From assembly GCA_964020155.1 (NCBI GenBank), contig OZ026570.1, forward strand, positions 3,420,779 through 3,484,778: a stretch of 64,000 nucleotides of DNA, in the 5' to 3' direction. Below are positions 2,781 to 60,133 of the stretch, one piece after another. Position 1 is the first letter of the stretch, and the number at the start of each line of letters is the position of its first letter. The translations under genes were made by a program, and so were the position numbers. Origin of the DNA: Chondrilla cf. caribensis (taxonomy: Eukaryota > Porifera > Demospongiae > Chondrillida > Chondrillidae). The notes under the pieces are model-generated. The model was not told the origin of the DNA and did no database searches. It saw only the letters and a list, made by a program, of their open reading frames with translations.

Positions 2781-5700
2781 CTGACACATCCACTCCAGCC
2801 TTGGATGGATTCAAGTTCATATCCTTCACGACTTCCTCCTCAACGACCACAAACGTATCAGCAGAACTGGTAGCAAATCCGTCCAGAGACTTCACACGGT
2901 TCAACTCACTGGTTGTGAGCCTGACGGACACCACAGTGCTGTACTGAGGGGACACAATGCTGCTTTCGTCACTCGGAGTGTGGAAGGCGGTAGCAGTGGA
3001 GGTGACATTGTTCTGCACCGTGACAAGGGATCTGTTGAAACAGGACGAGTTCACGGTTTCATCAAATGTGAGATGGAGGATTCCAGTGTTGAGATCGAAC
3101 AGGAATGATGAAAGTGTCGGAGGTACTGTGTCGTTCTGGAAGCAAACTGCCTTCACTGCCTCCGTGTGCGGAATGGGAACAACGGAATTATCCACCATGT
3201 CCACCACTAGATAGGAAGAAAACGAGATGTAAGTTTCATCAATTGTTGTCGCCAGGGTGGGACGCTCGGTGATCATGTTCAGATCTCGGCTGTCTAGCAT
3301 GATGTCAACTATCGGGCTGTCTGCTCCCAAGGGTAATCCCCTGTCGCTAAGCCTGACGTACAGGTGTGTGTCGGCAGTTGGTACGTGGCGTTCAGCCTGT
3401 AGGACGATCTCCTCCATTCTGAGGGAGTTGATGTTGACGGATTCGCTGAAGGTGAGGGTGAGGATTTCTGAGGTGAGATTGAGACAGAACTCCACAAGAT
3501 GGGGAGGAGTGGTGTCGCCTACGAAGGACAGCACCTTCACGGGAGGTCTTGGTACCACCCTGTTCTCGTTCATGTCGTTCACGAGGAATTCACTGAAGGA
3601 GAAATAGGTTGTCGAGGAATTTCTGGCAAGACTCAGTTCTTCCTTGATGGCATTAAGATCGTCGTCGCCAATAGCAACCGTAACCAAGTAGGTGTTCGTT
3701 AACGGATCAACAGCATAGCTGCCATGTGGGAGGGGCTTGTCCGTGAGTGGGATAGACACACTTCTGTTGTCAGCAGAACTCTGTATACTAATCTGGGTAA
3801 CGTCAAAACTGCTAATGTTGACTGGTTCATCAAACTGCAGCACAAAGGTACCAGAATCGAGGTCGAACTCATTGAAATCCACCAGTTTGGGCCGAACAAG
3901 GTCTTCAGTGAAGTTGAGAACATTCTGTGCGTCGCTTGTTGGAATTGGTACGATGGGATTCTCGTTCATGTCAAGAACAAGACTATCAGTGATGGAGATG
4001 AAGGTATTGGAGTCACTGGTGGCCAATTCGGTCAGTGTCTTGATGGCATGCAAATCGTCAAATCCAAGATTGATGGTGAGGACGTGGAAGTCGGAATGGG
4101 GATCAGACAAACTTGAACTGGAAGTGAGATTGTAGGCTTGTGTGACATTGTCCATATGTTGGGCATTCTGGAGAGTGATTTGTTCGATCATGAATGTTCG
4201 GGTTCTGATGGTTTCCGAGAAGGACAAAATCAACTGATCCGAAGTCAAGTTCAATTCAAAAGCATCCAATTCCGGATCCACAAAGTCTGGATACAATTCA
4301 TCAGCAACTATACTGTTGACAAGTGAATCTGAATCTGAAATGGGAACAACTGGATTTGGATCCAGAGCAAGATCGTCGATTGCATAACGTGTGAAGGTCA
4401 ACCAGGAGTTGGTGCGGTCAGTGTAGATGGTTGTCATTCTCTTGACCTCGTTGAGGTCCACGAGACTGAAAAGAAAAGTGATGACGGTGCTGTGATAGGG
4501 TGGGGGGATTCCCCCAGTCAGGGTGTACGCGAACTCGGCCTTGAAGAAGTCCTGCAGAGTGAAAGCTGTGAAGTTCAGACTGGTCACGTTGACTGTTTCG
4601 TCAAAGGTCAGGGAAACCTCTTCAGAAGTGAGGTTCACGGTGAAGGCAACGAGTCGTGGACGTGTCTGGTCCGGATTATATCCCGAGACCTGGAGAGTGG
4701 AGTTAACGTACCGTGCTCCAATCGGATTTCCCACCATATCGTAGACGCTGGCATTGTTGTGGTTGATGAAACAATCGGAGACTTGACGACAAATCAACTT
4801 TCGTTTGATCTCGTTTTGGTCTTGTGTACTGATGGTGATCAAAATGGTTGTATTATCACTCTGATCGCTCTTCGTTGAAGATGTGAAGGTGAAGTTGGTG
4901 CCGGTGCCTGTTGTGCCATCCAGGAGGGTGAATTCGGTGGTTTCAAGTGTCGATGCATTCACTGTCTCATCGAATGTCAGAACAAGATGGCCACTGTTCA
5001 TATCAATGGAAAATTCAGTCAAAACAGGTGGAGTTTCATCTGGGATGAACACGGCAGCAATTTTTCCCTCTCCATCATTGATAGCTGTCAGCATATTCAT
5101 GTTCATGTCCATGATGGCATCACTGGTGACCACAATGTGCGTGGTATCAATATCAATGGCAAGATTCTGTCGTCGCTTCAGTTCGTTCCTGTCAACAGGT
5201 CCAAGATCAACAACAACAATGTAGTCGTTGTCACTCGTGGTGGATGTTTGGTTCACTCCAGGGGTCAGCATGAAAGGGGACGAGTGGTAGTCTGTACTGG
5301 ACTGTGGAGCGTGTTGTAGGACTATCTGGTCCACCATCAAACTGGACGAATTGACAGTTTCGTTGAAGGTCAAGATCAGAGTTGAGGAGTCCATATCAAG
5401 GGTGAAGTTCACCAAGATGGGTTGCATGGTATCTGGAGTGTGGATCCTAACAGGGAGAGCGTCCTCGGGGTAGATAGCCACCACGGTGTTGTCGTTGAGG
5501 TCCACAACTGTGACATTCGTTAGAGACAGGTACGTATCATTCTTGCCTGTGGCCAAACTGCTACGATACTTGATGGCATTCAAGTCGTTGAAGCTTATTC
5601 TGATCATCACGACTCTTGAGTCATTGTCCATGGAGCTCGTCTCTTGAGGTGGTTCAGCAGTGAAGGTGTAGTTGAGGAGTTCGTTGCTGGTTTCTCCCCG

Positions 5701-8700
5701 AGCTGCATGGAGGGTGATCTCAGTCACGTTGAGGGTATCTCTGATCTTGACAGTCTCAGAGAAAGTGAGAATCAATCGTCCATCATCAAGGTCCAAATCG
5801 AAGCTGATTAACTCAGGGGGCGTGGTGTCGGGTGTGTACATCACAGTATGTCTGCCGAACTGCGGAAGCCTTTCAACGACATCGTTCCCGGCCATATCCA
5901 GTATGGTGAAATTGGTCCATGAGAGATAGGTATCTTCCGAGCTTGTGACAAGGTTTCTGATGTTCTTTAGTACATCAAGGTCTTGATGCCCAATCTGTAC
6001 GACCACCACTGGATCGTTGGGTGAGAACGAGGCTGAAGTGTTCGGATACGGAGGGTCAGAGTTCAAAGTGTAGTTGACGTAGTCACTGGACCAAATGTTC
6101 CTCTGGTTGTGGAAGGTGAGCTGGGTCGTGTCCAGCGAGGTCACATTCACAGTCTCACTGAAGGTGAGGGTCAGGTTTCCGCTGTCCAAGTCGAGTTCAT
6201 ACGAGAGGAGGACAGGACTGGTGATATCGTGAGTGAATCCATCACTCTTCTGCGCTTCGTCTGTTGCTATGGCGGTAACATTGTTACCAACCATGTCAAA
6301 GATGGCTACCGAGGTGATGGACAAGTAAGTATCGTAACTACTAGTGGCCAAAGATGTCAATTTCTTTACTTCATTGAGATCTTGTCTGCTCAAGTAGACA
6401 ACAAGAACGGGGGAGTTGAAGGTGTAGAGAGGGGTGAAGGTGTTGCTAGGGGAGCTTGGCTGAGAGGTGTTGGTTGCCATAGTAATATTATCGAATAGTC
6501 CAATCAAAAAGTCCGGTGTCTCGTCTGGGTCGAGGAAATCCTGAGGGAAATAGACACCGTCGCCACTGGCAACAGGGAGAGGGGATTCCGGAATGAGCCC
6601 ACTTGTGGTGAGCGTGTACATTTCAGTAAAATTGACTTTTTTGTTGACGAGTGTGAACTGGGTCACATCAAGTGTCTCCGCATCGACAGTCTCATCGAAC
6701 AGCAAGGTCAATGTTCCGTCGTTCATGTCAAGATGGAATCCGTTGAGCTCTGGTGATGTTTCATCAGGAATGTACAGGTTGACTTGCTCCGCTGTCAACC
6801 CATTTACCAGTGGGACCAGTGACTGGTTGTTGTTGTCGACAAGAGCATCTTCGTCCATGACAAGCCAGGTTGTGTTGGTGCTTGTGGCAATTCTCTTCTT
6901 CTTGATCTCATTGAGGTCGTCTAGTGATAAGTTGAGGGTGACGTGTCTGTTGTCCAGCATGGTGATGGTGCTTGACGCCGTCGTGAACTCCGAGAAGTAG
7001 TGATAGGACATCTCATCATATTCGGACACGTTGAACGATCGCTGGAGACGGATTGATGGAAGATTGAAGGATGACACATCGACCGTTTCGTAGAATGACA
7101 GATACAACAACCCTTCGTTCATGTCCAGATTGTAGCTCAGAAGATGAGGCATGATACGATCGTCGAAGAAGAAACTAGCCTGTTTTCTTGTGATTGGAGC
7201 AGATGGATTGTAGACCATGTCCTGTATTGCACCTTCGATCAGCGTGAGATAGCTATCATTGATGGAAGTGAAGAGATCAGTTCTTGCTTTCACGTCGTTC
7301 AAATCTTCGTACTTGAATTTGAACACAACTCTCAGACCATTTGGAGGATCTCCTCTCTCTCCAGTGAGATTGAACACAGTTGACGGGAATTCTGCGTCGT
7401 TTTCGAGAGAGAATTTGGTGGGAATAATCGTGTCGTACCTCACGGGCTCGTCAAACACGAGAACAAGCACGCCTCCAGTCATGTTTGCAATGAAGGATAC
7501 AAGGTTCGGTGGTTCTTCTTCGATGGGGTCAAACAACGCCCTCAGCACGGTGTTGTCGATGGTGTTATTGCCGGTCCAGTCCCACACGGAGAACTCGGCC
7601 AAGTAGAGCCAGGTATTATTACGCTCTGTCCACAGATATTCAGTCACTTTGATGTCATTCACGTCTTCTCGTATCAGATGTAGAGTGACGTTGTGTGTGT
7701 ACGAAGTGTCAAAAGTACCGTTGGTGAGTGTGAGATTAATGGCGCCAACTTCATCAGAGAAAACACCAATCTTGCTGAAATCGGTGAAGTCAAGAGCAAT
7801 AGCTTCGTCAAAGAACAGCTGTACAATCCATCGATCGAGGTTGACAGTGAAGTTGACCAGCATTGGTCTGGATACATCTGGAAGGTAATCCAAAGACTCC
7901 AGAGCTTCACCGTCAACGACGTCAACCACTCTGTTCCCGTTCATGTCGGCAACAGTGTCGGAAGTGATGGTAAGGAAGGAGTCATGGAGAGATGTGTACA
8001 AATTTGTCAGAGCTGTAAGTTCGTATACATCATACACACCGAGGTCAACAACTATCATGTAGTCATCAGAGCTATCAGTCGATGATGGTTCCTTCAATGT
8101 GATGTTAGGTCCTATCGCCGTGAGGTAGTCCTGTAGAGTTATTTGGTCCACTCTTAGCGAGGAGCTGTTGACCGTTTCCGAGAAGTACAGAATGAGGAGT
8201 CTGCCATCCATGTCAACCACAAAGTCCTCCAGTATCGGCCTGGTTGTATCCTCCGTATAGTTTGTGACTTCAAAAGGTGTTTCCACGGCAACAAGAGGAT
8301 TGGAGTTCATGTCGGCAACAGCCAATGATGTCAAGAGAAGAAAGGTGTCATTTTCGCTGGTTGCCAAATCGGTCAACTTCTTGATCTCGTTGCTGTCAAA
8401 GAGACTCAACTTGACCTCAATGATCGTATCATCCAAACTGTCATTGACCACACTGCTGTCGCTGGTGAGGGTGTAGTTAGTGGACCAGTGAGTCAGGTAG
8501 GCACCGTTGGTGAAGGTGATCTGGCGTGATTCAAGCGACCCTGCCTCCACTGTCTCATCAAAAGTGAGCGTCAAGATGTCGGAATCCAAATCAAAGTCAA
8601 ACGACACAAGCCGTGGTGAGGTGGTGTCATTGGTGAAGTTTGCAGCCTGTAGAGCGTCCGTTGTGTTGATAAGAACGATGGAGTTGTTGTTCATGTCGAA

Positions 8701-11700
8701 GACCACAATATCTCTGATCGCAATGAAAGTGTCAGCAGTTGAAGTAGCCAAGGCCGTCAATCTCTTGATGTTGTTGAGATCGGTTTGGTTGATAATCACC
8801 GTGACAACGGGATCATTGGTGCTATTCGTCTTGCCACCAATCAACTGATAGTGTACGGTAGTGTTTGGATCCCGGTCATCCAGAAAATGGATTCCAGTTG
8901 GATCCAGAGTTGAGCTGCGAACAGTTTCATCAAACGTCAAGTGAAGCAGACCCTCGTTCATGTCCAGATGGAAGGACTCCAACTCTGGTGGAACGAAGTC
9001 CTCGACAAAGTCATCCGCTGGTCTACTCACCTCTGATGAGATGTAGTTTCCGGCCATATCTGTAAGAAAGGCTTCCTCCACCACGAGGTATGTGGTGGTG
9101 TTACTGACAGCCAAATTCTCCTCTTTCTTGATCTCGTTGAGGTCAACTCGGGTTAGTTTCAGAGTGACGTGAGTACTGTTTGATGCTTCAGGTATGATAC
9201 CTCCTGTCAGACGAAGGGTGGCGTTTCCATTCCCATTCGAAATTGAAAGTTGGGTTGCGTCGAGCGATGACACGTTCACAGTCTCGTTGAAGACCATTCT
9301 TACTTCCTCCAAACTCAGATCGAGTTCGTAGTAGGTCAGAGCAGGTGGAGTAGTGTCCCTCACATACCTGCTCACTTGCTTAGCTGCGAAGGGCGAGATC
9401 TCCACCAAGGTGTTACCGTTCATGTCGGTCACTGCATATGATGTCATTGAGATGTACGTATTTGATGGAAAACTGGCCAAATTGTCGTATTTCTTGATCC
9501 TGTTGATGTCATCAGGGTGAAGATGGATGCTGATGGATGGGTTGTTAAAGTTTAGTGGGAAGCTTGTGTTGAGTGTGTGAAATCGTGTGACAGAACTGTT
9601 GTCGAAGTCAACAGTGAAGTTGTCCTGTAGTGTGATCTCGCCGATCATGAGGTTTGGAACTCGGACCGTTTCGTTGAACACCAACATGAGGAGGTCACTG
9701 TTCATGTCCAAATGGAAGTCCACCAGTATTGGAGGTCTCGAATCTTCCGTGAAATTGGACACCTGGATGGGATCGGTGAAGTTCAGTTCATTCTCGTTCA
9801 TGTCCATGATGGCTAGCTCTGATAGAATGAGATAGGTTGTGTTTCCATCAACAGCAAGGTCGAGATCACGTTTGATGTTGTTCACGTCATCAATACTCAT
9901 CTGGACCACTATGATGTAGCCATCATCCGACGGGGTAGACCCCATCGTTAGGTTGTAGGAGGGATCAAGGGTAAACAGATCTGCAGCAATGATGAATTCG
10001 TTGACAAGCAGTGTGAGGTGGTCAACGGCTTCGGTGAAGGTCAGAGTGATTTGCTCCGAATTGAGGTTAAATTCGAAAGCAACAAGCTGTGGTTGTGTGG
10101 TATCCATGGTGATATTCCTTACAATTGTGGCATTGTCGGGATCCACCTCCACAAGGGGAAGCCCCATCATGTCATACACGGTCCCCTCGGGTAGGGAGAG
10201 GTGGGTGTTCCCACCGGATTCGTTGCTGGCCAAGTGTCTGCGAATCTTGACATTGTTTAGGTCAGAGAAGGACAGCGTTACAACGATGACGGTGGAATCA
10301 ACCATCGTCCAGCTACTGGTGGTGGTCAGTGTGTATTCTTCAGTGGTTGCATTCACACTCGGACCATTCTGTAACGTCACTAGGGAGATGTTGAACGTAT
10401 CAGCATTGACTGTTTCATCAAACACAAGAGTGAGCGTGCCTTCATCAACGTCGAGATCGAACTCTTCCAACCGAGGAGGTGTGGTGTCGTTGTATACCAT
10501 CCTCACGGCCCGCCCACGTGTTGCGGGAATGGGAACGATGTAATTCTCGACCATATCGTGCACAGTGGTGTTCAGAATGGAGAGGTAAGTGTTGGAAACA
10601 TCTGTTCCGAGGTCATCCATGGCTTTCAAAGTGTTCAACTCCTCCTCAGTGAGCACTAGAGTTAGGTACACATCGTTGGGGAGATTGAGGTGCCTCGGAG
10701 TGAGGGTCAACATCTGGGTGGAGTCGTTGTTTCTGTTCAGCAAGGTGATGGAGGACGGGTCCAGAGATGAGCCGTAAACTGTCTCTGAGAAAGTCATGAT
10801 CAATTCTCCCGTGTTGAGATCCAGATCAAAGTCGACGAGGCGAGGTCGTGTCGTATCATGGATGAATCCATCAGGGTCGACAACAATCGCAGCTGTTAGG
10901 CTGATCGGATCAACTGGATTTCTGTTCATATCATCAATGAGATCTGTTGTTATGGTAATATACGTGGTTACATCATTGATGGCCAATCCTGTTAATTTCT
11001 TAATCTCATTGAGATCAAAGTGACCGATTTGCACCTCAACGACAGGACCATTGGTGGAGTTGGAGAGGCTGCCAGGAGTGAGGGTGAGGGTGTAGTTCTG
11101 GGCATTGGGGTTACTGCGTTCTCCAACCAGTGTGAGCTGTGTGACATCCAGAGACGAGACATTGACGGATTCCGAGAAGAACAGTGTCAGCAATCCTGGC
11201 CCGTCCATGTCGAGGAAGAAGAATTCCAGTTGTGGTGGTACCTCGTCCGGGTACACTAAATCTGAGACTAGTGACATGTTTGAACGTATCGGGTAATTCC
11301 AGTTGAAATTCATGTCTTGTATCAATCGATCCCCAATTGATATCAGTGTATCGTTTGTCTCGGTACCCAATGTGGTTGCAATCTTGATCAAGTTGAGATC
11401 ATCTCTGATCAGTTTGATATCGACAACTGTTGAATCATTTCCCAACACGGTACCATTGGTTAGGTTGACAGACTCAGTTCCATTTGGACTCAGAATGGAA
11501 ACTTCGACAGAATTAAAAGTCTCCACAAAGACCGTCTCATCAAAGGTAAGTGTGAGGATTTCATTGGTCAAATTCAGTTCAAAACCGACCAATCGAGGGC
11601 TGGTGGTATCATTCACAAACACAGTTACCATAACAGCAGATCCCTCGTCGATAGGGACCACAGAGTTGTCGAACATGTCGGAGATTGCATCAGATGTGAG

Positions 11701-14700
11701 GGCAAGATGGCTGTCAGAGGTATTGTGAGCTAGACCGCGCTGGCGTTTGATCTCGTTGAGGTCATCCACCAGGAGGTAGATCTCTATCACAGTCGCAAAG
11801 TCAGAAGTGTGGTTCCATGCTCCAGTCAACACAATCCCAAAAGAACTGTTTCGCACCGGATCACCAAGGAGGGCTAGTTCGGATGGTTGAAGCGAGGATC
11901 CGTTGACGGTTTCGTTGAAGTGCAGGACCAGGAGTCCAAGGTTCATATCGAGATCGAAATGGTCCAATTCTGGATGGATGATGTCGGGATAGTACAGGGT
12001 TACATTGTGGGGTGCTGACGGTGGTACCTCCTCCACTGGATTCCCGCTCATGTCATCGATGAAGGAGGACGTTAGAGAGAGGTGAGTACTCTCTGGTGAG
12101 ACCGCCAACATGCTCAGCTCTTTGACCTTGTTCAAATCGTTCACTCCGAGCTGGATGAAGATAGTGGTGGAGTCCTGTCCAACAGGGGATCCACCAAGAA
12201 TGTCCGAATCGTCAGTCAGTGTGTAGTTCTGTGTGTCTCCATCCGGTGTACCATCAGAATGCAGGGTCAACTGAGAGACCATCAGGCTGCTGGCGTTCAT
12301 CGTCTCAGAGAACACAAGGGAGAGCACTTCGGAGGTCAAGTTGAGGCTGAAGGACTCCAGTTCGGGAGGGGTGATGTCGGTGGTGACGTTACCAGCTTGA
12401 AGGGCTTGCGTGCTGTTGATCTCCACTAAGAGGTTACCAAACACATCTTCAATTGTGTACTCGAAGGCAGCGATGAAGGTATTGTTGACGCTGGTTCCAA
12501 GGAGAAACAATCTCTTCAGCTCGTCCGAATCAGATTTCGACAGGTACACTCTCTGCACTGGGCCATCCACCATGTCCGAGTTCTGAGATCCATATGATAG
12601 AGTGTGAAATGTGAACGGATCTGGGTTTCTGGCCCTTGAGTTCTGTAGGGTGAGGTGGGTAGCATTGAAAGTCACCCAGTTCACAGTTTCGTCGAACGTG
12701 AGCCACAGGTCGTTGCTGTCCATGTCCAGTGCAAAGTTCTTCAGAGTGGGTGGAGTGTCGTCACGGAGATAGTCTGACACAAGTAGCGGCATCACAGTGA
12801 TGTCAACATTGGAGATACCAAACTGGTCCAGTACAAGTTCGGAGGATACTCGGATGTAGGCGGACATGTTGCTGACTCCGATACGACGTGCCTTCAACTG
12901 ATCGACATCATACGTCAGTAGATCAATGATCAAAGTGGTATCGTCCATCATGCTGACCGTTCCCCTTGTCAACTGGTACATTTTATCGGAGCTCATCGTC
13001 AGATCGCTGGAAAGCAGAGTAACCTGTGTGATGTCCAGGGACAAGTAGTCAACGGTCTCACTGAAGTGGAGAGTCAACTGCTCTGGTGCATCCATGTCAA
13101 GATCGAACCTCAAGAGGACAGGTTGACTGGTGTCGTTGATGAACGAACAGCTCATCTTAGCATCCAAGGGTGCCAAACCCTCAATGGAGTTGTTGTTCGT
13201 GTCCACAATTGCCCCTTTCCGTACTCTGAGATAGGTGGTCATCTGGCTGATCAGCAATGTCTCCAACTTCTTGATCTCGTTCAGGTCTTCCTCTGTGAGA
13301 ACTACGGTGACGTTTTTCCCGTTGTCCGGTTGAACGCTCCCACCGGTCAGGTTATACTCCGTGTATGCGCCCGTGTTGGAATCCTGGAACACCAACCTGT
13401 CGTACTGGATGGATTGTGCGATCACGGGTTCGTCAAACATGATGGTTAACAGAGAGGAATTGATGTTGACTTGATAGCAGACTATCATAGGTGGAGTGGT
13501 GTCGGGTGTGAACAAGTCTACGGGCAACAACGCATAATCTGAGGGATTGGGAACAAACGCTGTGTCCTTCACAGCACCAGGTTCAAGCTCAAGGAAGGTG
13601 GTACTGTTGCTAGCAGCCAGAGTGAGGGATAACTTAAGAGCACACACATCAGCCTCCGTCAACTTAATGTCGACAATATGACCGTTCCCAGTGATGGGGG
13701 TGCCATCAGTGAGGGTGTAGTTGGTGACAAAGCTGATGTTGTCACTGGAGAAGAAGGTGAATTTGGTGTACACAAACTGGGTCACGTCGACGGTTTCAGT
13801 GAATACAAGAGTGAGAACCTCTCTGTCCATGTCCAGACCGAAGGCGACAAGCTGAGGATTCGTGGTGTCTTCGGTGAAGTTGAGTGCAGGCTTTGCTCCT
13901 GCTGTGGTGATCTCGTTCACTGCATTCCCGCTCATGTCTCGTACTGCTGATGAATCCATCACCAAATGCGTGGTCTCCAGGGACTGAGCAACATTGGAAT
14001 TATTCTTAATGGCATTCAGATCATCAAAGCCAATCATAACGGACACGATGTAGTGGTCCATGGTGGTGGGTTCGCTGGAAGGTGTCAAGGGAACAGACTC
14101 TCCAGAGGTTGGCATAGCAACAATCTGGATGGATGATGTATTGAGAGAGCTCACGTTCACTGTCTCTGAGAATGTCAGATCGAGGAATCCCATATTCATG
14201 TCCAGTGTGAAGTTCACCAGAGATGGACTGGTTTCATCGGGAATGAATGTGTCAACCGGGTCAGCCGCGTCCTCCAGCACGGGAGATACTGGATTCCTGC
14301 TCATGTCGAACACAGTCAGGTTACTCAAGTACAGGTGAGTGTCCTTGAAGCCTGTACCAATGTCCGTGTACTGCTTCAGTTCGTTGATGTCCTCGAAGCC
14401 AATATTCACAGTGACTCGAGTGCTGTCCGACATGGACCAGGTTGTGGATGGACCGAGGTGGGAGGTGCGTGTGGACAGGAGAAACGTTCTCGTGACATTC
14501 TCGAGTGGCTCTGGAGTGCTCTGTATCGTCAGCTCTGTGAACTGGAAGCTACTTGCGTTGACAGTCTCATCGAACGTGAGCACGAGTTGGTCAGCATTCA
14601 AGTCCAGTGTGAAATTGACCAGCATGGGGTTGGTGGTGTCGCGGATCAGGCTGCGCACACGCTGAACGGCTCCACTGGTGTCGGTGATGGCGAGGACATC

Positions 14701-35700: not shown

Positions 35701-38700
35701 AGTTGTAGTCACGTCTGCATTGGAAACTTGGACAAAACTGGAGCCGGAATCGCTGTCACTCTGGGCCTTTTGTATGGTGATCTGATTCGTGTCAAACGTG
35801 TCGACGTTAACAGTCTCATCGAAGGTGAAGTGCAGCTCACCAGTGTTGAGGTCCATGGTGAAGTACAGCAAGTTGGGAGACACCAGATCCTCTGTGTAGT
35901 CCTCCACTGCTAGCAGTATCGGCTTCACTCTGTTCGAGTTGGTGTCATTTATGGCCTCCGAGGTGATGGAGAGATAGGTGGTCGTGTTGCTGGTAGCCAA
36001 CAAGTAGAGTCTCTTAATCTCATTGAGGTCCTCGTCTCCAAGATCAACCATGATGGTGGGGGAATCGGCATCCATACTTGAGCTGTTGACAAGACTGTAG
36101 ATAGTGGAGGTTGATAGGTCAGGACTTGAGGAGAGGGTGAACTGGGTTATGTTGAGAGTGGACACATCCACCGTTTCGTTGAAGGTGAGCGTCAACTCGT
36201 TGTTGGTGAGGTCCAGGTTGAACTGGAGGAGGCAGGGTGACTTTGTATCTGGAGTGTGTGTGCCCACTCTCATGGCAACAGTGCTATTTATAGGTATGAC
36301 ATCATTTCCTGCCATATCGTCAATAGTGAACTCCTGGATGGTGAGGTAAGTGTTGGAGTCCACCGTGGCCAGCCCTCGGACGGACTTGATGTAGTTGAGG
36401 TCGTCTGCATCCAGTTGGATAACAACAACGGTACTGTCTGGCATGATAGACCATCCTCCATACAGAATACGTTGCTCAGAGGGGGGATCCCCTCGGTTTG
36501 AAATGACGGCAAGTCCCACTGTGTTAAGGGTGTCCTGGTCGACGGTTTCATCAAAGGTGAGAAGAAGCTGCTCAGATGTGAGATCAAGATCGAACGACAC
36601 CAGAGCTGGTCTGGTTGAGTCGTTGGTATATCCAGACACCTGCAATGCATTGCCATTGGGGATCGGGTAAAGATGGTTACCACTGACGTCCTGAACGGCT
36701 GCTGTGGTGACACGGATCCAGGTGTCGTTTACGTCTGTTGCTAGCATGTCTAGTCGCTTGATCTCATTAAGGTCTGGCACATTGAGCTCAACAGTGAGGA
36801 CGGGATCAGCCACACCCTCCACCACCCCGCCCGTCAGCATGGTCCGCTGATCCCCGGCAGTGTAGAGGTAGTTCTGGATGGTGAACTGCGTGACATCCAG
36901 GACGGTTGGTTCCACCGGCTCCGAGAATGACAACTTGAGTACACCAGTGTTCATGTCGAGATCGAATGCCTCCAGTCGCGGCTGGGTTTCATCCGGAAAT
37001 ACAAAACTAGCTTGCAGAGGAACCAAACTGGTGTATGGTACAATCGGGTTTCCACTCACATCAACAACAAGTTCTTCTGGGAAGGACAGGAAGGTGTTTG
37101 AGCGGTTGGTGGCTAGATCAAGCATACGCTTGATAGCATTGATGTCCCTTCTTGCAATCTGTACAGTTACTTCGGGTGTGATGATGCTGAGAGGGAGGGT
37201 GTTGGTGTCAAGAGTGAGGGTATGACTGTTTGCAACCATACTGGGACCAGCCAAAACAGTGATGAGAGTTGTGTTAACAACAACAACTGTCTCCGAGAAT
37301 GAGAGGTAGAGTTGATCGAGATCGAGCGACAGGTTATAACTGGTGAGTACTGGAGGGATCAGGTCAGCAGTGTAGTTGGTAACATGCAGTGTAGTGTCTC
37401 CGTTTGTCCTCTCCATCACGCTGACACCATTTTGATCGACAATAGTAGTTGAGTTGATGGTTATCCAAGTTGTCTCTCTAGTGAGAGCGATGCTGAGGGC
37501 CTTGATGGTGTTGAGGTCATCATGATCGAACCTGAAACTCACGATAGTGGAGTCCTCGTAACTCAGAAGCTCCCCACCCGTGAGAGTGTAGGTGTTGTTG
37601 GTGTCAAAAGCAGACTGTAGTGTGATCCCGCTGAAGGTGATGGAGGGAACACTAACCGTCTCACTAAACTCCAAAGTGATGATCTCCGAGGACATGTTGA
37701 CATGAAACGCCATCAAGATGGGCATGGTGGTGTCATTGATGAAGGTCACTTGGCATCTCGGATCACGGGTGCCCACCAGATGCATTGGGTTAGCATTGGT
37801 GTCCAGGATGGTGTAACTATCGGCAGCTAAACACGAAGTGTCCGGATCAATGAGAAGGTTTTCGATCTTCTTGATGGCATTGAGGTCATCATCACTGATG
37901 AAAACCTTGATCTGCTGACTGATGTTACTGTAGGTGTCTCCTCCCGTTAGCCGATAGGACACCGCACTCCCAGGTGAGTTCAGGAACGTTATCCCCGTGG
38001 GATCCAGCGAGGACCCATTCACAGGTTCATCGAAGTTCAAGGTGAGGCATCCCCTGTTGAGGTCGATGGTGACCGACTTCAATACAGGCGGCACAGCGTC
38101 TGCGATGTACCCACCATCCATGACAGACAGAAACGTTGAAACAGCTGCATTGGTCTCTATTGACAGATCGACCACAAACTCACCATTGGCAGAGAGGAAG
38201 GTGTCAGCAGCTGTTGTAGCCAGGTCCGTGTTTGCTTTGATGGCGTTGGCATCTTCCACCGACAGACGCACCTTTACGGTTGGTGAGTTGTCGCTGATGA
38301 CTACACTGCTCGTCAGTGCATAGCTGAGAGCATGGGGAGAAGTGTAGTTTGCTGAATACAGAGCAAGCTGGCCAATAACGAGTGAGCTGGAGTTCACGGT
38401 TTCCTCAAAAAACAGAGTGAGTATCTCCGAGGACAGGTCCAGAGCAAAACCATTCAGTACAGGGGCAGTCGTATCTTGGGTGAAGCCCTCCACTCTAAGA
38501 GGCATTGCGTCTGAGATGTAAACAATGTTGTTGTTGTTTACATCCCTGGCAAAGGAGGAGTTGATCTGGACATACGTGTCGTTATCGTCTCTTGCCAATT
38601 CAGTGAGATATTTGATGTTGTTTAGATCATCGCGGCTGATATCAATGAAAATCACTGGACCATCACCTGTCACTACGAAACTAGTGTTGAGGGTGTACCC

Positions 38701-41700
38701 GGTGTTATTGGGGGCGGGACCAGACAAAAATGTCAACTGGGTGACATTGATGGAGTTGGCATCAACAGTTTCGCTGAAATACAAAACCATCATACCTCCT
38801 TGATCGAGGTCCAGATCAAAGCCGAGGAGTACAGGATCAATCATATCTTCAGTGTATATCGTAACAGCAGTCGCATTGACTCCGCCCACCAGCGGTAGGA
38901 TTTCATTCCCATTCATGTCCAAGACAAAGTTGGAACCAAAACTCGCAAAAGTGTCAGAATCGGAAGTCGCCAAATCACGAATTTTCTTGATCTCATTGAG
39001 ATCTTCCAGCCCGAGGTCGATGGCTACCTTGTTGTCATCCGTGCCGTTAACCACAGCACTGCCATCCGCCTCTGTTGTCAAGGCATAGTAGGAGGTGGAC
39101 GGGCTTGCAGAGTTAGACGACAAAATGGCCAACTCTGAAATGTTCAACGTTTCAATGTCAATAACTTCTGAGAATGTCAGAAGGAGCAATTCTCTTGTCA
39201 AATCGAGATCAAACCGGAGCAACTGAGGTGGTACGAAGTCAGCAGTGAAATTGTCCACTTTGAGTGCGTCTTCCGGTTCAATGGGGGTAACAGGCTGTCC
39301 ATTCATATCAGTGATGGTGGTGTTAGGGAAGGAAATGAAAGTGTCGTTCACATTGGTGGCTATCACGGTGTAGCGCTTCAGGTTGTTAAGATCCACCACT
39401 CCCAGCTGGATGACAACCACCGTGTCGTTGGTGCTGGAGGTGTAACTGTTGTTTTCTCCTCCCACCGTGAGTCTCACTGCAACAGGCTGCGGAGTGCTGT
39501 CGTACACCGGTATGTACTCTGTGATGGTGTCAATGGTGGAGTTGGTGGACGTGAGGTTGGTGGAGGTGAGGTTGGAGGTGAGGTTGGTAAAGGTGACGTT
39601 GGTGGACATTTCGATCACAACCGGGATGAAGTCGATGGGACCGGCTCTCGGAGCCTGATGGGAGAGAAGCACAATATCACTGATAATCAGAGAGGGGACA
39701 CTCACCACCTCGTTGAAGGTGAGGGCAAGGGTCTCGGCTGTTAAATCTAGCGAGAATGCTTCCAAATATGGCATGGTGGTATCCCGTATGAACATGTTTG
39801 CCATTTTTGCAGCAGTTGGGAGGATTTCAAGGATAGGGTTACTGGCTCCGTTGGTCTCCATGTCGCTGACCAGAGATGATCCGAAACTGATGAAAGTGGT
39901 TGTCATCAAATCAGCCAATCCGATCATCTGCTTCAATGTGTTCAAATCATCCACTGTTAGCTCCAGGACGATGTAATCTCGAGGGGTGGTGTTCCAGTAC
40001 CCTCCTGTGAGGGTGTGAGAGAGGGTGGGTGGAAAACGGGCTGCTTGAAGCCGTATGTCCGAGGGCCGGAAACTAGAAGAGTTGACAGTCTCGTTGAAGA
40101 ACATCGTCAGCTCTCCCGTGTTCAGATCCAGGTTGAAATCATCCAGTTGTGGCCTGTTTCGATCTGGTATGTACATGTTCGGTGAAGTCAGAGTTAGTTC
40201 GGTGCCCACATTACCAAAGGTGTCCATCACAACGGTGGACTGGATGTTAAGACCAGTTGATCCGCTATCAACAGCAAGATCTGGTAAAGCCTTGATGGCA
40301 TTCAGGTCCTGGTGTGTCAGCGGCACGTCGACCATCACTCTGAAGGGAAATGGATCTGGTATACCCCCAGTTAGTGTGAAATTGACGTAGTTTCTTCCCA
40401 CGAGGGTCAGCAAGGTGGAGTTGAATGTGCTGGGATTGACAGGTTCGTCAAATGTGAGGGTGAGTGTTGCCGTGTTTACGTCAAGGGTAAAGCCCAGGAG
40501 GACCGAGGGAGTCACATCGGGGGTCAGTGTCCCCTGCAGTGCATCTGTGGTGGGAATCACGTCGGCGGGGAAACCCCTCCAATCCATCACAATGAGGGAG
40601 TAGGACATGAAGGTGTTGTTGTTGTTCGTGGCAACCAGGGCATTGGCCTTTATGTCGTTCACAACACTGGTGGGCAACCTCTGCACAATGGTGTAGCTCC
40701 TGTCAGCTGTTGTAGTGAGGTTCACCAGGGAGTTCAGACTGACCACCTGGTCTGGGAGCTGCTGCTTTTGACTCTGAAGCTCAATGAACCGTGTTTCGAA
40801 GGTACTCACTCGGACTACATCAGTAAAGTTGATTTCAAGGGTCCCCTCATTGAGGTCAAGATGGAAGGACTCCACCACAACTTGCACAAAGTCTGGAAGA
40901 TAAAGGTCCACCCCCATAACACCCGACTCAAGGACAGCATTGCCATTCATATCCAGCACAGATCCATTGTTCACTCTCACAAAAGTGTTTGTTTGCACAG
41001 TTGCAATGGAGTCGTTTGACTTCAACGCCAGCACATCCTCCCTACCCAGGTACACAATGACCTGTATCTTGAGGGTATTGCTGACATAATCGGCCGTGCT
41101 GTCTGTGAGCGTGTGGACCACATTCCCCACCATGCTGCCCAATATTGCAATCCCGCTGATGTTGAGCGTGGTAATGTTCACAGGTTCACCGAACTCCAAA
41201 GTGAGTGTGTTGTCTCCGAGATTTATCTCTCTGAAGCTGACCAGGCCAAATCTGACTGTATCCGGATACACCACAGCAGCTTGCAAAGCGTTGAGGAGTG
41301 TGATTGGTACAACATCATTGTCTGCTACATCTTTAATGAGCTCGCTCGTGTGAGTGAGGTATGTGTTGTTCTCTTCCGTGGCAAAATCTTCAAAAGCTTT
41401 CAAATTGTCAAGATCCAGTTTGGATAAGTTGAACACTACGACGAGGTCTCCATCTTGAGACACAGCTGTACCGGGGACGCCCACCAAGGTGTAGTTCCTG
41501 GTTGAGTTGGGTGCAGCGTCGTGGAGGGTGATGTCGCCGGGTTCGAAGTGGAGAATGTTCACGGGCTCGTCAAAGGTCAACCTAACCTGGTCGACAGTCA
41601 AGTCGAGAACAAAATCGGTCAACAATGGAGAAATTCGGTCCGGCTCGTAAGACACAGCTCGATCTCCTATTGTGCGATATACAGGATTGTCTGACATGTC

Positions 41701-44700
41701 TAATACAGTACCGTTTTCCAGGGTGAGGTAGGATGTAGCTATGTCACTGAAAAGATTTGTGTTGGCTTTGATGGCATTCAAATCATCTATGTGAATTTCA
41801 ATATGAATGGTTGTTCCACTGATGTTTGTCAACAAGATGCCATCGTATTGGAGTGGGTAAACATGTTGGGCGTTACCAAATGTGTTCTGGAGGATGACGC
41901 CGGTGAAGTTGAAGGTGTCGAGGTTCACAGTTTCCGAGAAGGTCATGTGGATCCGTCCCAGGGTGAGATCCACAGTGAAGGCTTCCAACTCGGGTGGAGT
42001 CACGTCATCGATGTAATCCGCAGCCTGTATCCCAGTGCAGGTGAGGTCCTCGAACAGGTTCTCAGCTCGCTGGCCGGAAACGGGGAAAGAAGGCAATCCT
42101 ACATAATCCACAACTGCTCCTTCTTCAAGATATATGTACGTATCGTCTTCTGATTTCGCGAATGGCTTTTTGATGTCTTTGATCTCCTCTTGGTCGGTTC
42201 TGGTCAGTCTGACAATCACGGTAGAATCGAACTCCTCGCCATACACGATGCTGCTTGGTGAAAGCATCTGGATGAACAGGTCCACACCTAGTGTACCTGC
42301 AAGATCCTCTCTGTTGGCCAACATGATGGCACCAATGTTGAGGGATGATGGAACCACTGCTTCAGAGAACCTCAGAATGAGCAGATTGTCGTTCAAGTTG
42401 AGATCGAATGAGGTGAAATTTGGTCGTGTTACGTCGGGGAGTATCAGAACAGCTGGTAACGCTTCATTCTGAGGGGTTGTCCTTGAAGGATTGCCACTGT
42501 AGTCCTCGATGGACCCATTGTCCACTCGAACAAAAGCATTGCTGACGTTAGTGGTGAGGTTGACCATTGACTTCAGGGCGTTCAGGTCCGTGGTGTTGAG
42601 GATGGTGGTGATCGTGAGTGGGTCGATGGTATCCATGGCAACCAGCCCCGCCGACAACCTGTACCTCATGGGCAGAATAGCATCCGAGAGGTTCGCGGCA
42701 TTCTGGATCACAACCTGCTGGGAGTTGAAGGTGGACGCATAGACAGGTTCGTTGAAGGTCAAGTTGAGAGTTCCCGTGTTGAGGTCCAGCGTAAAATACT
42801 CCACATCTGGTCCCGTCTCGTCGGGGAATACCCTATCCGCCTGGAAGGCATTCTCAAAGTCAACACCAAACACGGTCCGATTGTAAATATCGTAGATGAC
42901 ATCGGGGAGGATGGAGACAAAGGTGTTGTTCGTGTCAGTGCCCAAGAGCAGGTCTGCCTTTATTGCATTGAGGTCGTCCACATCCAGCAGAATGTCAATG
43001 TAGTATTCATCAGGTACGGACTCATCCGGCGTTGCATACTCACCCTGGAGCGTATGTGTTATGTTGCTACCGGGAGCACTCAACAGGGTGACTGATAGCG
43101 GTTCTAGAGTCTGGGCTTCGAGTACATCGTTGAAGAACAAAGTGATGACTCCACTGTTCAAATCGAGGTCGAATCCCTCCAGTGACGGTGGGGTTAGGTC
43201 CGGCTTGTAGTCAACTCCTCGCACTCGTGTTGCCAGGAACGGGGACACAGGGACAACTTCATTCTCCACAAAATCCAAAATGGCCGACGAATTGAAGTAG
43301 ACGTAGGTAGTGCTGCCATTTTCAGCTATCGTGTGGTCCAATTTGATCAGCCGCAAGTCGAACCGATTGAAGTAAATCATGACCTGCAATTTCCTCTCGT
43401 CGACATACTCAATACTGCCTCCTGTGAGTCGAACACCTTCCTCGGGTCTCTCAACCTCATACGTTACATTACATCCTTCCAGACTGAGTGGATACAGGTC
43501 TGAATTTGAGATGTTGTAGATCTCTGAGAGTGTCTCGTTGTCGACTGTGGTCCGGTTGGTGGTGGAGTTCCACAACTCAAGCCTCCGCTGAATTTCCTCA
43601 TCCCGGGCTGCATCCAGCAGGTCCTCGAGGGGACAAGTCAAGCTGTATTGGTGCTGGGTGAGGTAGGGGAGACCATCCATGAAAATTGTACCATTTTCGT
43701 ACAAGAGAAACTGGGACCCTTCCTCCTGGACGAGGAGTGGGGAGGTATCGATGGTGTAGTTCCCGATGAACACAAACTCGTCGAACACAATGGATGAGCG
43801 ATTGACTGGCTCGTCAAACAACAAGGTGAAGGATCCGTTGTCTAGGTTGAACATGACAAAATCAACCAGCTCCGGGGGGGTGGTGTCGTAGATGAATCCC
43901 GATACCTGGATGGTCTGATTGGCAATACTGACGCCGGAGACATCTCTGATAAAACCATCACTGATTCCAAAGTATGAATTGCTCTCCTGTTCAAACAGAA
44001 ATTCAGTGGCCTTCAATAAAATGAAGTCGTCTGTGTTTATGGTCCAGGATATCAGCAAACCATCCTCGCTTCTTACAAAGGTGCCATGGTAACGAGGCGT
44101 GAAAGTGACAGCAGGTACCATGTCGTCCTGGAATGTCAAGTACAGAGGATTGAAGGAATTCTCGATAACTGGTTCGTCAAACGTCAGCATCATGGTACCC
44201 TGGTCCATGTCAATATCGAAACCGACAGGAATTGGAGGAGTGGTGTCTGGTGTCACCCGCTTCGGAACACGTTCTGGGGCCATGCTACCACTCATCAGGG
44301 GAACAACAAGGTTGTTGGAGACGTCGGTGACAAAGGTGTAGTTGAATCGCAACCAGCAGTTGAGAACACTCGTGCAGAGCTCAGTGTTCAGTTTGAGAAG
44401 ATCCAGCGCTTCGTCGTGCAGCTGAAGAACCAGTGTTGGGCCATCACCAGTTACCACGGTAGCGGGGAATGGATGGAACTGGTGAGTTGCATTAACGAAG
44501 GCCTCCTCCAGTGTGCTAATCCTCAGCCATACTCGGGTGGAAATGATAGTCTCAGAGAACAGCAGAGTGAGAGTCCCAGCATCCCTGTCTAACTCCTCAA
44601 AGGACACCAGTTCTGGTGGGGTGGTGTCAGCAACATGGCTACCCACCTCCATCGGGCTGGACAGACTGATGGGGATGATGGCATTGGAGGCTGCATCCCT

Positions 44701-47700
44701 CACAAATCCGCTGTTGACGCTCACAAAACAAGTTAGGGCAGTCACACAGATCCTGCTACTCTTCAAGGCATTCAGTTCGTGATCACTCAGCCTCACTCGA
44801 ACATCACTGCGGTATCCAGCATCGAGGAGAGTACCGTTGGAGAGGGAAGAAGTGGAGGTCGATCCACGACCAGAAGTGAAGGTGAAGTCCTGCAGATTTA
44901 CAGTGGAGAGATCCACTGTTTCGTCGAAGAAGATCGTCAGAAGACCGACATTGTAGTCCAAGTTGTACGATGACACAGAAGGTCTGGTGGTGTCCTCTAC
45001 ATAGCTGCCAACTGGCCTTGCAGCACTCTTGGGGTACGGGATAACGTTATTCATAGCCATGTCTCTCACAGAAGTCTCACTGAAGCTGAGATATGTGTTT
45101 CCACTGGCAGTTGCCAGAGAAGGAAGTGCTTTGATCCCATCCAGATCATCTCGTGAAAGGTACAGCTCCAGAACGGTGGTTTCGGGCTGTTGCAACACAC
45201 CCCCAGTGAAGGCGTACATGCTGGATGGAGAGGATGGTGCATCCTGGAGAACAAACATCTCACGAACAAAACTCGAAATGTTCACTGTCTCTGAAAACGT
45301 CAGTGTGAGCTTGCCGACATTCAAATCCAAGTCAAAACGTTCCAACGTCGGTCTTGTTATGTCTACAGTGTGGTTACTAGCACCCAGAGCACTGTCACTA
45401 GTGATGGCCTCGCTCGGGTTGGAGTTCATGTCTCGGATTCCTCCAGCGACCAAGGTGATGTACGTCGACTCCACTTCGGATCCAAGCGGGTACTGGAGGG
45501 CAATGTTGTTGAAATCAAATCGGGAAAGGTCCACCTGCACCACAGTGCCATCCGGACTAGTGGTTGAACTGCCGGCCGACAGGGTTACCACTTGAGAGGG
45601 CGACTTCTCTCTCTCTTGCAACGAAATATCATGGATGTTCAACGTGGTCGACTCCACTGCTTCGTTGAACGTGAGCAGCAACACCAGACTGTCGAGATTG
45701 ATGGAGAAACTAACCAGACGCGGAGCGGTTGTATCTTCAACAACCAAATTCACTCTGTCAGCAGCAGAGGTGCTAATGGCTATCACTTTGTTACCGCTGG
45801 TATCACTCACCATCTCGTCAGTGAAACTGATGAAGGTGTTCGAGATTTCTGTGCCAAGAGTTCGGGCTAGTTTGATGGCATCAAGGTCGTCTGATGATAG
45901 TTCGAGATTGATGAAATTCCTGTCCACCCTTGTCCAGGATCCCCCACTGAGTGTGCGAGCTGTCCCACCAGTAAAGGTACTCTGGATTGTGACTTGTGTG
46001 GGATCGAATGAGCTTGAATCAATTGTTTCTGAAAACGACATAAACAGTTCCCCAGAGTCAAGGTCCATGTTGAACAGCTCCAGTGTCGGTCTGATCATGT
46101 CCTGTGTGTAGAAAGACGCTTGTAGGGCTTGATTACGAGTGATGGGCGTGGCACCATTCCCGCTCATATCCTGAACGACGTTCTCCGACACAACAACAAA
46201 CGTGTCGCTGATGGATGTTGCCAAGTTACGGATGGATTTGACAGCATCCAGGTCCACCTTATCGAGTGTGAGTGTGACCACATTGCTATCAGCAGTGGAA
46301 GCAGTGCTGAGAGAAGGAATGTACTGGGCGGTGGAATCGCTGGCAGCATTCACGAAGCTGAGCTCGTTCACGTCAAAGGTTGCTCCTTGAACAGTCTCGT
46401 CAAACGTCAAAACCACCTCCCCGTTGTTCATGTCCAAAGTGAACGATCTCAATACAGCCGATGAGGTGTCATTGATGATGCTTGCTGGAGGTCTGGCGGT
46501 CACAACGTGTACCTGGTTGCCACTTGTGTCCGATATCGCAGTGCTGGTGAGAGAAACGAACGTGTTTGCTGTGCTTGTACCTAGACCCCTGAGCATCTTG
46601 ATGTGGTTGAGATCAGCTTCACTCAATGTGATCACCACAAGATAGTCAGCGTTGGAGGGCATTACTGCTCCCGGTGGACCCAGGACAACGGAGTCGGTTG
46701 GTGTACCTTGAGATGAGAGCAGAGTTATCTGATTGGTCTGCAACGTTTGAACATCGACGGTTTCTGAGAAGGTAACAATCAATTCTCCACTGTTGAGGTC
46801 GAGGGTGTAATCCGTCAAGAATGGGCGTGTTCCATCACCGGTGAAGTCCATCACAGGAAGTGCTTTTCCATCAGTGACAGCGATGGCATCAATCCCGTAG
46901 ACATCATCGACGATACTGGCCGCGACCGTCAAGAATGTATTCTCCATGCTTGTGGCAAGGTTTCTCAGTTGGTTGATACGATTGAGGTCGTCGAAACTGA
47001 GCAAAACCGTGATTGTGAACCCATCATTGATGGAATTTGCCGAGGTTGTGAGAGTGTGGGATTCTCCCGGGGTTCGTGTGAGGCCGCTTTGTAGGGTCAC
47101 GGCTCCAACTTGAAAAGTGGAAGCATCCACGACATCATCGAACATCAGCTTCATCTCGCGTGTGTCCATATCCAGGGTGAAATTGACCAGGATTACTGGT
47201 GAGGAGTCTGGAGTGAATGTTTGAACTCTGATGGCTGCTTCTGGTAAGATGGCCGACGAAGAAACAGAATTTGTATCCATGGCAACACCGGATAGTGCCG
47301 ACAAAAAGGTTGTATCGGGACTATCGGCCAAACGGGACGTAGTCTTGAGAGCAGTGAGGTCTGGCTCGTTGAGGAAGACAGTAACCTCAGAGGAACCTCC
47401 AAGTAAGGATTGCTGTACCTGTCCGCCTGTGAGCCTGTAAGACATACCTGTGTTGTTAGCAGCTGAGTGTATCATGATGTAGGAGGGATTGACCATTGAA
47501 AGTAGCACTGGTTCCGAGAAGTACAGGGTCAAAGTGTTACTGTCAGCATTGTAGTCGAAGGCTATGACGACTGGAGAGGAAGTGTCCACATCGAACCCTC
47601 TTACTTGTTGGGCAGATATCACCACAGAAGGGTTTGAGGAGAGAGATAGGTCTTGAGCAACTCCGGCAGAAAGAGACAAGAAGGTGTTACTTCTACCTGT

Positions 47701-48725
47701 GGCGAGAGCCGGCCTTGACTGCAACTGGATGAGATCCTCTTCGGATAGGTCCACCGTCATGGTGTTGCCGTCCTCTTGGATGATGGTACTGCTCCTAAGC
47801 TGATAGTAGAGTGTAGGGTCTGTAACACCAGGGCCAGACTGGAGGGTGATCCCGGACACGTTGAACGTGGACGCCTCCACTGGTTCGTTGAATGTGAGCA
47901 GAAGCTGATTCGAGGAAAAGTTCAACAAAAATGACTCCAAAATCGGTCCACTGATGTCATCCATAAAGGACAGGACATAGCGTTGGTTAGTCCGCACACC
48001 ATTCAGAAGTGGAGTGATAGCGTTGTCTGCCATATCGGTGACGAGTTGTGATGTCGGCAAGGTCAACCAACAGTTGGATCCACTGGAGCAGATGTCAGGT
48101 GAAAGCTTCAATCGATTCAGCTCACTTGTAGAGAGTTGTATGGTGATTTCCGAGCCATCGACGCAAGGCACACCGCAAGTAGCATCTCTCACAACAAACT
48201 CTGTACCAGGATCACTGTCGTAGTAGGACTGAAAGGCTAGTCCACCGGTGTTGGGAGTCACGGAGTCATATTTGACCGGTTCGTCGAAGGATATTGTGAG
48301 CCTACCTTCATCGAGGTCAAAGAGGCTGAAACCGTTTTCGGCGACTTGTGGTGGCGTCCGGTCAGCAGTGAAGGTTGTCACTGGAGCTGGGTTACTGGCT
48401 GCCACAGGCATAAGAGGGTCACCGTTCTCATCAACGATCCCATTTCCGCTATCAATGACGAGAAATGTGTTGATGGAGCTGGTGGCGAGACCTCGATCAA
48501 GTTTCAGAGCTGTTACATCAGATGGATCCAAAGTAAAAGCAAATGTGGCTGAATCCACACTGCGGGAGTTGCTACATCCAGTGAGCCGATATCGGTTGGG
48601 ATCACTTCGGGTTCTGGCTATTGAGAACCTTTCACAGTCCAAACCAGAGAAATCGATGCTGATTACTCCTTGCAGTCTGATGGTGATCTCTTCCGAGGTC
48701 AAGTCCAAGGTCCATTGGTACAGTT
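2781..48725 (-). CDS. Giant repeat protein, 45.9-kb central exon with ~119 tandem Ig-like domains
   Basis: One open frame of 45,945 nt (15,314 codons plus split codons at each end) has no stop or frameshift. By hand I count about 119 copies of one domain, mean length near 128 residues. In each, a linker DTTxPxL is followed by FxLDLNxG, LxLTFSETV, SSL/SSF, ITLQ, LTGG, then a likely helix DLNxIK near position 75, LATS, TFLS and VxDMxGNxVxPI. The N-terminal two thirds resembles bacterial-type Ig domains with an FSEPV strand (SbsA/Big_5, SWM). The DLNxIK/LATS segment is a signature I cannot assign to a named family. N-x-S/T sequons are very common and most units lack cysteine. The exon begins at an acceptor (CTCTGTAG) at 48727-48726 and ends at a TCAG|GTGTGT donor. 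A Met at 48748-48750 lies in the intron and is not the start. Function is unknown; secreted structural, adhesive or recognition roles are inferred. Confidence 0.93.
6420..6600 (-). other. Loop insertion in one late repeat (~unit 110)
   Basis: This copy carries about 55 extra residues, rich in Pro, Ser, Thr and Asp, between its LTTSG strand and the strand before DLNEVK. The insertion includes sequons (ITMATNTS) and stays in frame. It sits at the same place in the domain as the larger insertions at about 30165-30405, 39450-39650 and 43440-43755, which points to an exposed loop that tolerates length change. Confidence 0.7.
30165..30405 (-). other. Gly/Asn-rich loop insertion in one repeat (~unit 48)
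   Basis: This unit has about 75 extra residues after LTGGYLLM. They include a Gly/Asn/Thr-rich run with several N-x-S/T sequons and then a segment ending ANLDQGVEIDE before the normal strand and DLNRIK. The frame is intact. The composition suggests a flexible, glycosylated loop. Confidence 0.7.
39450..39650 (-). other. Loop insertion with coding minisatellite and sequon cluster (~unit 24)
   Basis: This copy has an inserted loop made partly of a short in-frame tandem repeat (about 39530-39612). It encodes successive NLTS/NLTST steps, so several N-glycosylation sequons lie side by side. The DNA shows imperfect GAGGTTGGTGGA-type units on the plus strand. It is the clearest recent-looking expansion inside the otherwise diverged array. 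Confidence 0.75.
43440..43755 (-). other. Largest loop insertion in the array (~unit 14)
   Basis: About 105 extra residues lie between the NYTIDTSP strand and VRLTGG of this unit. The segment is mixed in composition, with a charged stretch that looks helical (DAARDEEIQRR), two Cys and several sequons. It resembles no domain I know and could be a small inserted module. The frame is intact on both sides. Confidence 0.7.
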
Positions 48726-48774
48726 CTACAGAGAATGAGATGAACAACATTCATCTACAGGATGGTGGACATGC

Positions 48775-48841
<67 letters not shown>

Positions 48842-54284: not shown

Positions 54285-55082
54285 TTGTCTTTACTAAATA
54301 AAGTAAAAAGACGAGCTAGATGAACAATTGATAAAAACATTAAAATACGTACTATACACACCCCACCAAATACGCCCATTTTCAAGACCACAACAAGTTT
54401 GCATTTGTCGAATAAAATAATATTCGATAAAAAATGCGCTCCGCGCATGCGAGGTTAAAATCTTACCAATAATGGATTCACTTAAAACCGTACAATGGCT
54501 GATCCTTGGAAATTCTGGACGATCCTTGGAATTCAACCCAGTGTTAGCTTTTTTCAACGGAGCTACAAACGAGAAGCCTCTTGATGGGGAAAAGCGGTCC
54601 CGCCCTAAAATATCCGGAAATTAGCCGCCGTATATCTCCGTAACAGATAATAACCATTAATTTTCTTAGCATGACGGATGATTGAAGCGATCACTGGTTG
54701 CTACCAAAATGTGGATCTACCTGATCTCAACCCGGGGTTGGTGGGCATAATTCCAGTGATTATTATAACATTATAACATTTTTTACAACATACCAAATAT
54801 CCTTATGCTGAGAATGACCGTGCAAACTGCAACCAGTCGATTTCGCTCTATTAGTATAACCGGACATACCTGTTGAACAACTGGTCAGTCCCTTGAAAAC
54901 CAGCAGTGTACCATCTCCAGAGGAAGTGCATCTCCGTGTGTGATCTTTTGATCCGAAAATGACCGCTTGCCTTCCACTTCATGCGTGCCAAGTGTATTCA
55001 TTTCCGGATCTAGGTATAATGATATTCATTGAGAGCGATAAGCCAAATAAAAACAAAGATTAGTGTCTGCAGTCCAGCTAAC
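54285..55082. promoter_or_regulatory. Divergent intergenic region between the GPI-type gene and the WDR86-like gene
   Basis: This 798-bp spacer separates two genes transcribed away from each other. It holds an NRF1-like palindrome (CGCGCATGCGAG, 54442-54453) about 160 bp upstream of the GPI-type gene's ATG, in AT-rich surroundings. No long ORF, tRNA or clear TATA box was found. Both promoters should lie here. Confidence 0.4.
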
Positions 55083-56334: not shown

Positions 56335-56379
<45 letters not shown>

Positions 56380-59970: not shown

Positions 59971-60133
59971 CATTTCAGTTGGATAGAGAGTACTTAAAAT
60001 ACCTCTTCTTCTTTTCTCCCTTACATATAGCTATCAACCAATCGGATCGCCTGTTACTTTACAGAGATTTGTCGATTATCGTCATCACTAATCTGCCGGA
60101 GGCTTGCTGTCGTCAGTGCTAACAGGGGAAGGA
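59971..60133 (+). promoter_or_regulatory. Upstream region of the cadherin gene
   Basis: This is a short 5' region before the cadherin ATG, with an inverted-CCAAT-class box (ACCAATCGGA, about 60037-60046) roughly 90 bp upstream of the start codon. A pyrimidine-rich stretch (TTCTTCTTTTCTCCC) precedes it. No TATA box is evident. Confidence 0.35.

Follow-up and report, generated by a model that had tools for sequence, protein, structure and literature searches.

A predicted 45.9-kb internal coding exon in the sponge Chondrilla cf. caribensis and the giant Ig-like repeat protein that it encodes

Giant eukaryotic proteins encoded by giant genes include PKZILLA-1 of Prymnesium parvum, a polyketide synthase unrelated to the gene described here. 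In the glass sponge Aphrocallistes vastus, the genome of which is described as small and with short introns, the protein Avas.s016.g412.i1 of 49,014 aa and 5.34 MDa is encoded by a single 147-kbp exon according to the relevant passages of PMC10282587. The largest of the 363 exons of human titin (38,138 aa) is 17,106 bp long in the section of PMC12198301 giving these figures. As set out in the parts of PMC2614967 and PMC9225289 that deal with splice-site pairing, exon definition caps exon length and intron definition caps intron length only, large exons being spliced well when flanked by short introns; the switch of definition mode is placed near an intron length of 250 nt (PMC9225289).

A stretch of 64,000 nt from the sponge Chondrilla cf. 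caribensis (the window), situated on contig C25 of the 137-Mb assembly, was analysed here. It contains a gene modelled with three exons (Table 1), and its 45.9-kb exon joins the giant sponge coding exons already published (A. vastus, PMC10282587). Both cases concern a giant sponge protein and an uninterrupted exon of tens of kb or more, and they are likened by size and exon structure alone, the repeats of the A. vastus protein not being given in the relevant text of PMC10282587; however, the A. vastus giant is a single exon and hence not internal, whereas the window gene model has three. The first-pass annotation had given the largest titin exon as about 17 kb, which is correct, and had held other known coding exons to be less than half the size of the one in the window. 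The latter claim fails against the 147-kbp exon of A. vastus (PMC10282587) and is also contradicted on contig C25 itself, where the terminal exon of a second giant gene has 47,795 coding nt and thereby exceeds the 45,945 nt of the window exon. No longer internal coding exon came up among the papers listed in searches of open-licence literature, and the internal position of the 45.9-kb exon between two introns of approximately 500 nt may still be unusual or new.

The longest stop-free run in the window lies on the minus strand at 2470-48750 (46,281 nt), the second-longest anywhere in the window being 4,296 nt. At the base composition of exon 2, 4.5% of codons are expected to be stops, corresponding to a log10 probability of an open frame of approximately -310, and the remaining two sense frames contain 876 and 859 stops. 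The exon is bounded by TTCTCTGTAG/AACTG on the acceptor side and GTGTCAG/GTGTGT on the donor side (slashes mark the junctions), and the splice phases of 1 and 1 at its ends agree with those of exons 1 and 3. Exon 1 was assigned on the basis of its hydrophobic leader (signal peptide judged by eye), splice sites (donor CAAG/GTACG) and phase 1 only. The first-pass annotation of a single 45.9-kb coding exon on the minus strand without a stop, with phases matching the flanking exons, was thus borne out, the observation of one giant coding exon being confirmed at the sequence level. Selection on the frame, which it had also proposed, is upheld as long-term protein-level constraint by the domain-by-domain collinear relatives described below.

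Table 1. Coordinates of the predicted giant gene, of neighbouring features in the window and of the two further giant loci on contig C25 (window positions unless preceded by C25)
Feature	Position	Strand	Description
Exon 1	49309-49237	-	73 nt; ATG and probable signal peptide (24 codons + 1 nt)
Intron 1	49236-48726	-	511 nt; includes 61-bp GT tract at 48778-48838
Exon 2	48725-2781	-	Internal coding exon, 45,945 nt from acceptor to donor; 119 Ig-like repeats
Intron 2	2780-2288	-	493 nt; opens with 280-bp GT tract (2501-2780), in frame and stop-free
Exon 3	2287-567	-	Repeat 120, three IPT/TIG stretches, weak Calx-beta match, stop ending at 567
Adjacent paralogue	49992-54284	-	Uninterrupted, 1,430 aa, same repeats
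WD40-like coding pieces (by eye)	55029-58150	+	Surround the minisatellite
Minisatellite	57381-57798		9-bp unit, 46 copies (CTGTATGTA)
Cadherin ORF	60104-63013	+	Uninterrupted, 969 aa; six cadherin stretches, hydrophobic segment resembling a membrane span
Second giant gene	C25:264970-216747	-	187-nt first exon with leader; terminal exon, 47,795 coding nt including stop
Loci of second giant gene	C25:216747-264970	-	L039-L044, L011, L014, L021, L029, L035, L038
Third locus	C25 ~426.6-556.0 kb	+	Loci L045-L056 and others; 331 repeat matches, 11 near-adjoining frames

The predicted product has a length of 15,912 aa and a mass of 1.75 MDa, and its sequence contains 58 cysteines and 415 N-glycosylation sequons. 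With a profile derived from this sequence, 124 matches were obtained, which merge into 120 repeats spaced by a median of 125 aa; exon 2 encodes 119 of them and exon 3 one. Inserts of 57, 65, 70 and 101 aa interrupt four of the repeats and are unmatched by the profile; besides these, the gaps between profile matches are at most 27 aa. The identity between repeats has a mean of 30.7% and a maximum of 50%, with means of 0.306-0.321 across spacings of 1 to 12 and no trend; recent tandem expansion was therefore rejected. Since the repeats are diverged and exon 2 contains no repeated 22-mer (six 20-mers are repeated), the array is an old one, with nearly unique sequence for an assembler. Alignment A1 was made with 24 of the 39 listed repeats and alignment A2 with 72 of the 75 listed triplets, many of which overlap and are hence not independent. 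The repeat domain of approximately 125 aa was predicted as an Ig-like rod with a pLDDT of 95, each domain being modelled as a compact beta-sandwich with its neighbours packed in a defined way, so that a stiff rod is predicted. In exon 3, IPT/TIG (PF01833) passes its cut-off in three stretches (78.9 vs 20.9 bits) and Calx-beta (PF03160) scores 25.5 vs a cut-off of 27 bits, the same family being precomputed for the gene's own database ORF P0201, which is slightly longer than exon 3. No C-terminal hydrophobic anchor was seen in exon 3 by eye.

When the first 5,000 residues encoded by exon 2 were used as query, 78 of 452 scored database proteins matched at E<=0.001. The longest of these has only 7,987 aa, for which reason full-length orthologues are probably beyond the reach of the search. 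The tandem repeat is common to the window gene (120 copies) and an unnamed sponge family of giant Ig-like repeat proteins: the named organisms among the homologues (78 matches in one search and 120 of 283 listed in another, most without names) are all sponges, namely Dysidea avara, Corticium candelabrum, Ephydatia muelleri and Geodia barretti, whose repeat proteins are uncharacterised and 1,870-7,581 aa long in those records. Two of the 78 matches, P0016 and P0080, are ORFs from EukProt transcripts for which taxa are not given. Domain order was assessed in 17 of the 78 matches, after removal of repeats shorter than 70 aa from the diagonal counts. P0017 is collinear with window repeats 43-94 for 52 of 52 scored repeats at 59-60% identity, and six more proteins have 29-38 of 45-49 scored repeats on one diagonal. 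The remaining 10 tested proteins reach at most 7/49 on their best diagonal, P0007, P0032, P0015 and P0023 (4/60, 3/50, 3/50 and 3/46) not being collinear with the window gene. In P0024, repeats match window repeats 94-105 in order several times over, a pattern that would fit amplification of a domain block in the species concerned.

The frame stays open past the exon 2 donor (GTGTGT), which was placed within the GT tract, and the ORF alone therefore cannot fix the position of this donor. A search with exon 3 returned 12 database proteins in addition to its own ORF at 29-63% identity, the sole named organism being an Acidimicrobiia bacterium (P0213, 30% identity over 39% of the query). Eight of the 12 were aligned to the C-terminus of the giant (41-57% identity), and five of these finish within 3 residues of the end of the window protein. 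Seven of the eight read across the exon 2/3 join in one frame, P0206 beginning beyond it, and in the four relatives compared residue by residue (P0202, P0204, P0205 and P0207) nothing similar to the GT-coded stretch is present. This readthrough supports the splice join 2781/2287 and is evidence that the relatives crossing the join in one frame lack intron 2. The frames of other relatives stop at or close to five positions of the window protein, residue 6007 in three proteins, 8410 in two, and 8540, 12134 and 15640, and continue into unrelated tails of 2-20 residues; these ends were read as introns in those species, with less weight on the ends of P0004 and P0012, the contigs of which are barely longer than the frames.

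Searches of Pfam, NCBIfam and PHROGs with the first 1,241 aa of exon 2 and with the neighbouring paralogue did not name the repeat, nor did a Pfam run on 24 single repeats; one weak PHROG match of unknown function was obtained (E 4.1e-7). Big_5 (PF13205) remained below threshold over the first 1,241 aa of exon 2 (19.3 vs a cut-off of 23.6 bits) and was found in 0 of 24 single repeats at E<=0.1. A distant kinship of the repeat to Big_5 is nevertheless likely, because this family is precomputed for several relatives (12 of 120 listed in one search, 1 of 78 in another). Relatives of the repeat were confirmed for 0 of 11 pattern matches in viral contigs and 0 of 40 in prokaryote genome contigs. 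By sequence, the repeat profile matched no PDB entry at E<=1. By predicted structure, the top Z in the VIA list was obtained for an Ig-like domain of the S-layer protein SbsC (2ra1, 16% identity), the fold of which is shared over most of one domain; SbsC is bacterial, and nothing points to descent for the sponge repeat. FMG-1B of Chlamydomonas is a giant extracellular glycoprotein with Ig-like beads. It was the top Foldseek match (9gos, E 1.2e-7), with a TM-score of only 0.22 of the query, and with 3,878 residues its chain is too long for the VIA comparison, which is limited to 3,000 residues.

A search with about four repeats listed at least 122 matches, all on contig C25 (85 of 260 candidates scored). 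The second giant gene encodes 15,993 aa of the same repeat family without N or an internal stop; its origin as a whole-gene duplicate was rejected, 4 of 126 repeats lying on the best diagonal. At the third locus, the frames include ones of 27.0, 11.6, 20.1, 22.6 (5 kb of which is N) and 29.1 kb (with 200 N and 303 unread bases), the N runs being 5,000 and 200 long. Of the ten breaks between frames, six fall within a repeat, three between repeats and one in an N run, and at the mid-repeat breaks the profile picks up again near the point at which it broke off, once overlapping by 24 positions. Such a pattern is what introns would produce, and the third locus therefore looks like one gene of approximately 41,000 codons, the N run included. 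Its exon model is rough, with one junction lacking a candidate, one passing through N and several picks cutting coding sequence, so that only the order of size was taken from it. GT tracts also occur shortly upstream of the leaders of both other giant genes on the contig. Within the window, the adjacent paralogue sits 682 bp upstream of the ATG of the giant, carries a leader and a C-terminal hydrophobic segment (both by eye) and is equalled in length by two database relatives, which are 96% and 84% identical to it.

We consider it probable that the locus is a three-exon animal gene, spliced by intron definition, for a secreted and glycosylated Ig-like filament with a TIG/Calx-beta docking region; reading frame, splice phases, repeat tiling and collinear relatives are the parts read directly from sequence. 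The domain plan would consist of a signal peptide, 120 tandem Ig-like domains of approximately 125 aa, three TIG domains and one Calx-beta-like domain, and the product would be a long glycosylated extracellular filament or cell-coat strand of about half a micrometre, the C-terminal TIG/Calx-beta block of which may dock onto other matrix or surface partners. Both flanking introns would be short enough for pairing across the intron rather than the exon, which may be why the exon can be so long. At 511 and 493 nt, and partly made of GT tracts (61 and 280 bp), they exceed the switch near 250 nt, and splicing by intron definition with a more tolerant limit is likely. Between species, introns would have been gained or lost within the domain array of a protein of fixed order.

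If introns of multiples of 3 and free of stops were hidden in the frame, the mature mRNA would consist of several shorter exons. The four inserts outside the repeat profile would suit this explanation, as would P0008, a protein collinear with the window gene at this point that lacks most of the 65-aa insert (16 of 65 residues aligned), and the frame ends near 6007, 8410, 8540 and 12134. However, no other unmatched stretch exceeds 27 aa, and three of the inserts align with relatives: the 101-aa insert aligns over 92-97 residues (27-31 identical) and the 65-aa insert over 55-57 residues (13-17 identical) in P0003, P0004 and P0005, and the 70-aa insert aligns with P0017 over 60 residues (22 identical) and with P0008 over 49 (12 identical), the 57-aa insert lying outside the collinear relatives found. 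We therefore regard hidden introns as quite improbable. An over-long array misjoined from tandem copies might be suspected from the N runs in the third locus of the same contig, but the window is without N, the array offers neither a 22-mer occurring twice nor domains more than 50% identical, and P0017 keeps all 52 scored domains in the same order; P0017 and P0207 are both on contigs of 741,503 bases, consistent with one contig. Misassembly of the exon 2 array is on these grounds unlikely, to the point of being scarcely credible.

The in-frame ATG that opens the frame at 48750, just 5' of the exon 2 acceptor, would permit a gene starting there without exon 1, and the adjoining small paralogue, being one uninterrupted ORF, could be taken to favour two or more adjacent genes. 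With a leader supplied by exon 1 in the right phase, a leader likewise preceding the giant exon in both other giant loci (by eye in the third) and an array without any stop, such arrangements have little probability. A membrane-bound protein or an intracellular titin-like spring is brought to mind by the size and the tandem Ig-like folds, and titin fragments do appear in the Foldseek list (for example 2rik, E 6.6e-6, TM 0.16-0.18); titin resembles the window product in being a giant built of Ig-like domains and in having one exon of great length, but it is an intracellular sarcomere protein. The leader peptide, the 415 sequons, the TIG domains, the lack of a visible C-terminal hydrophobic segment, the absence of sequence matches to solved structures at E<=1 and the bacterial S-layer protein at the top of the VIA list argue against these possibilities. 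No titin-type Pfam domain (kinase, FN3/I-set Ig) was found in the first 1,241 aa of exon 2, exon 3 or the 24 repeats, and one repeat type tiles the rest of the giant, with at most 101 residues unmatched between profile matches. We consider a membrane-bound or intracellular product unlikely and retain the secreted filament as the preferred reading. A wider proposition is advanced tentatively, as plausible rather than probable: that this is the longest internal coding exon on record, that it belongs to a sponge-wide family of giant secreted Ig rods in which order is kept and introns turn over, and that the third gene, at approximately 41,000 aa, is larger than titin.

The repeat does not reach the Pfam cut-offs, and gene finders readily fragment or miss genes as large as these. 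If transcripts confirm the model, the locus would provide a natural test of how splice sites pair when introns are very short and exons very long. That dozens of diverged domains keep their order between species means that a giant protein, in all likelihood extracellular, can be conserved one domain at a time, in contrast to a freely changing tandem array.
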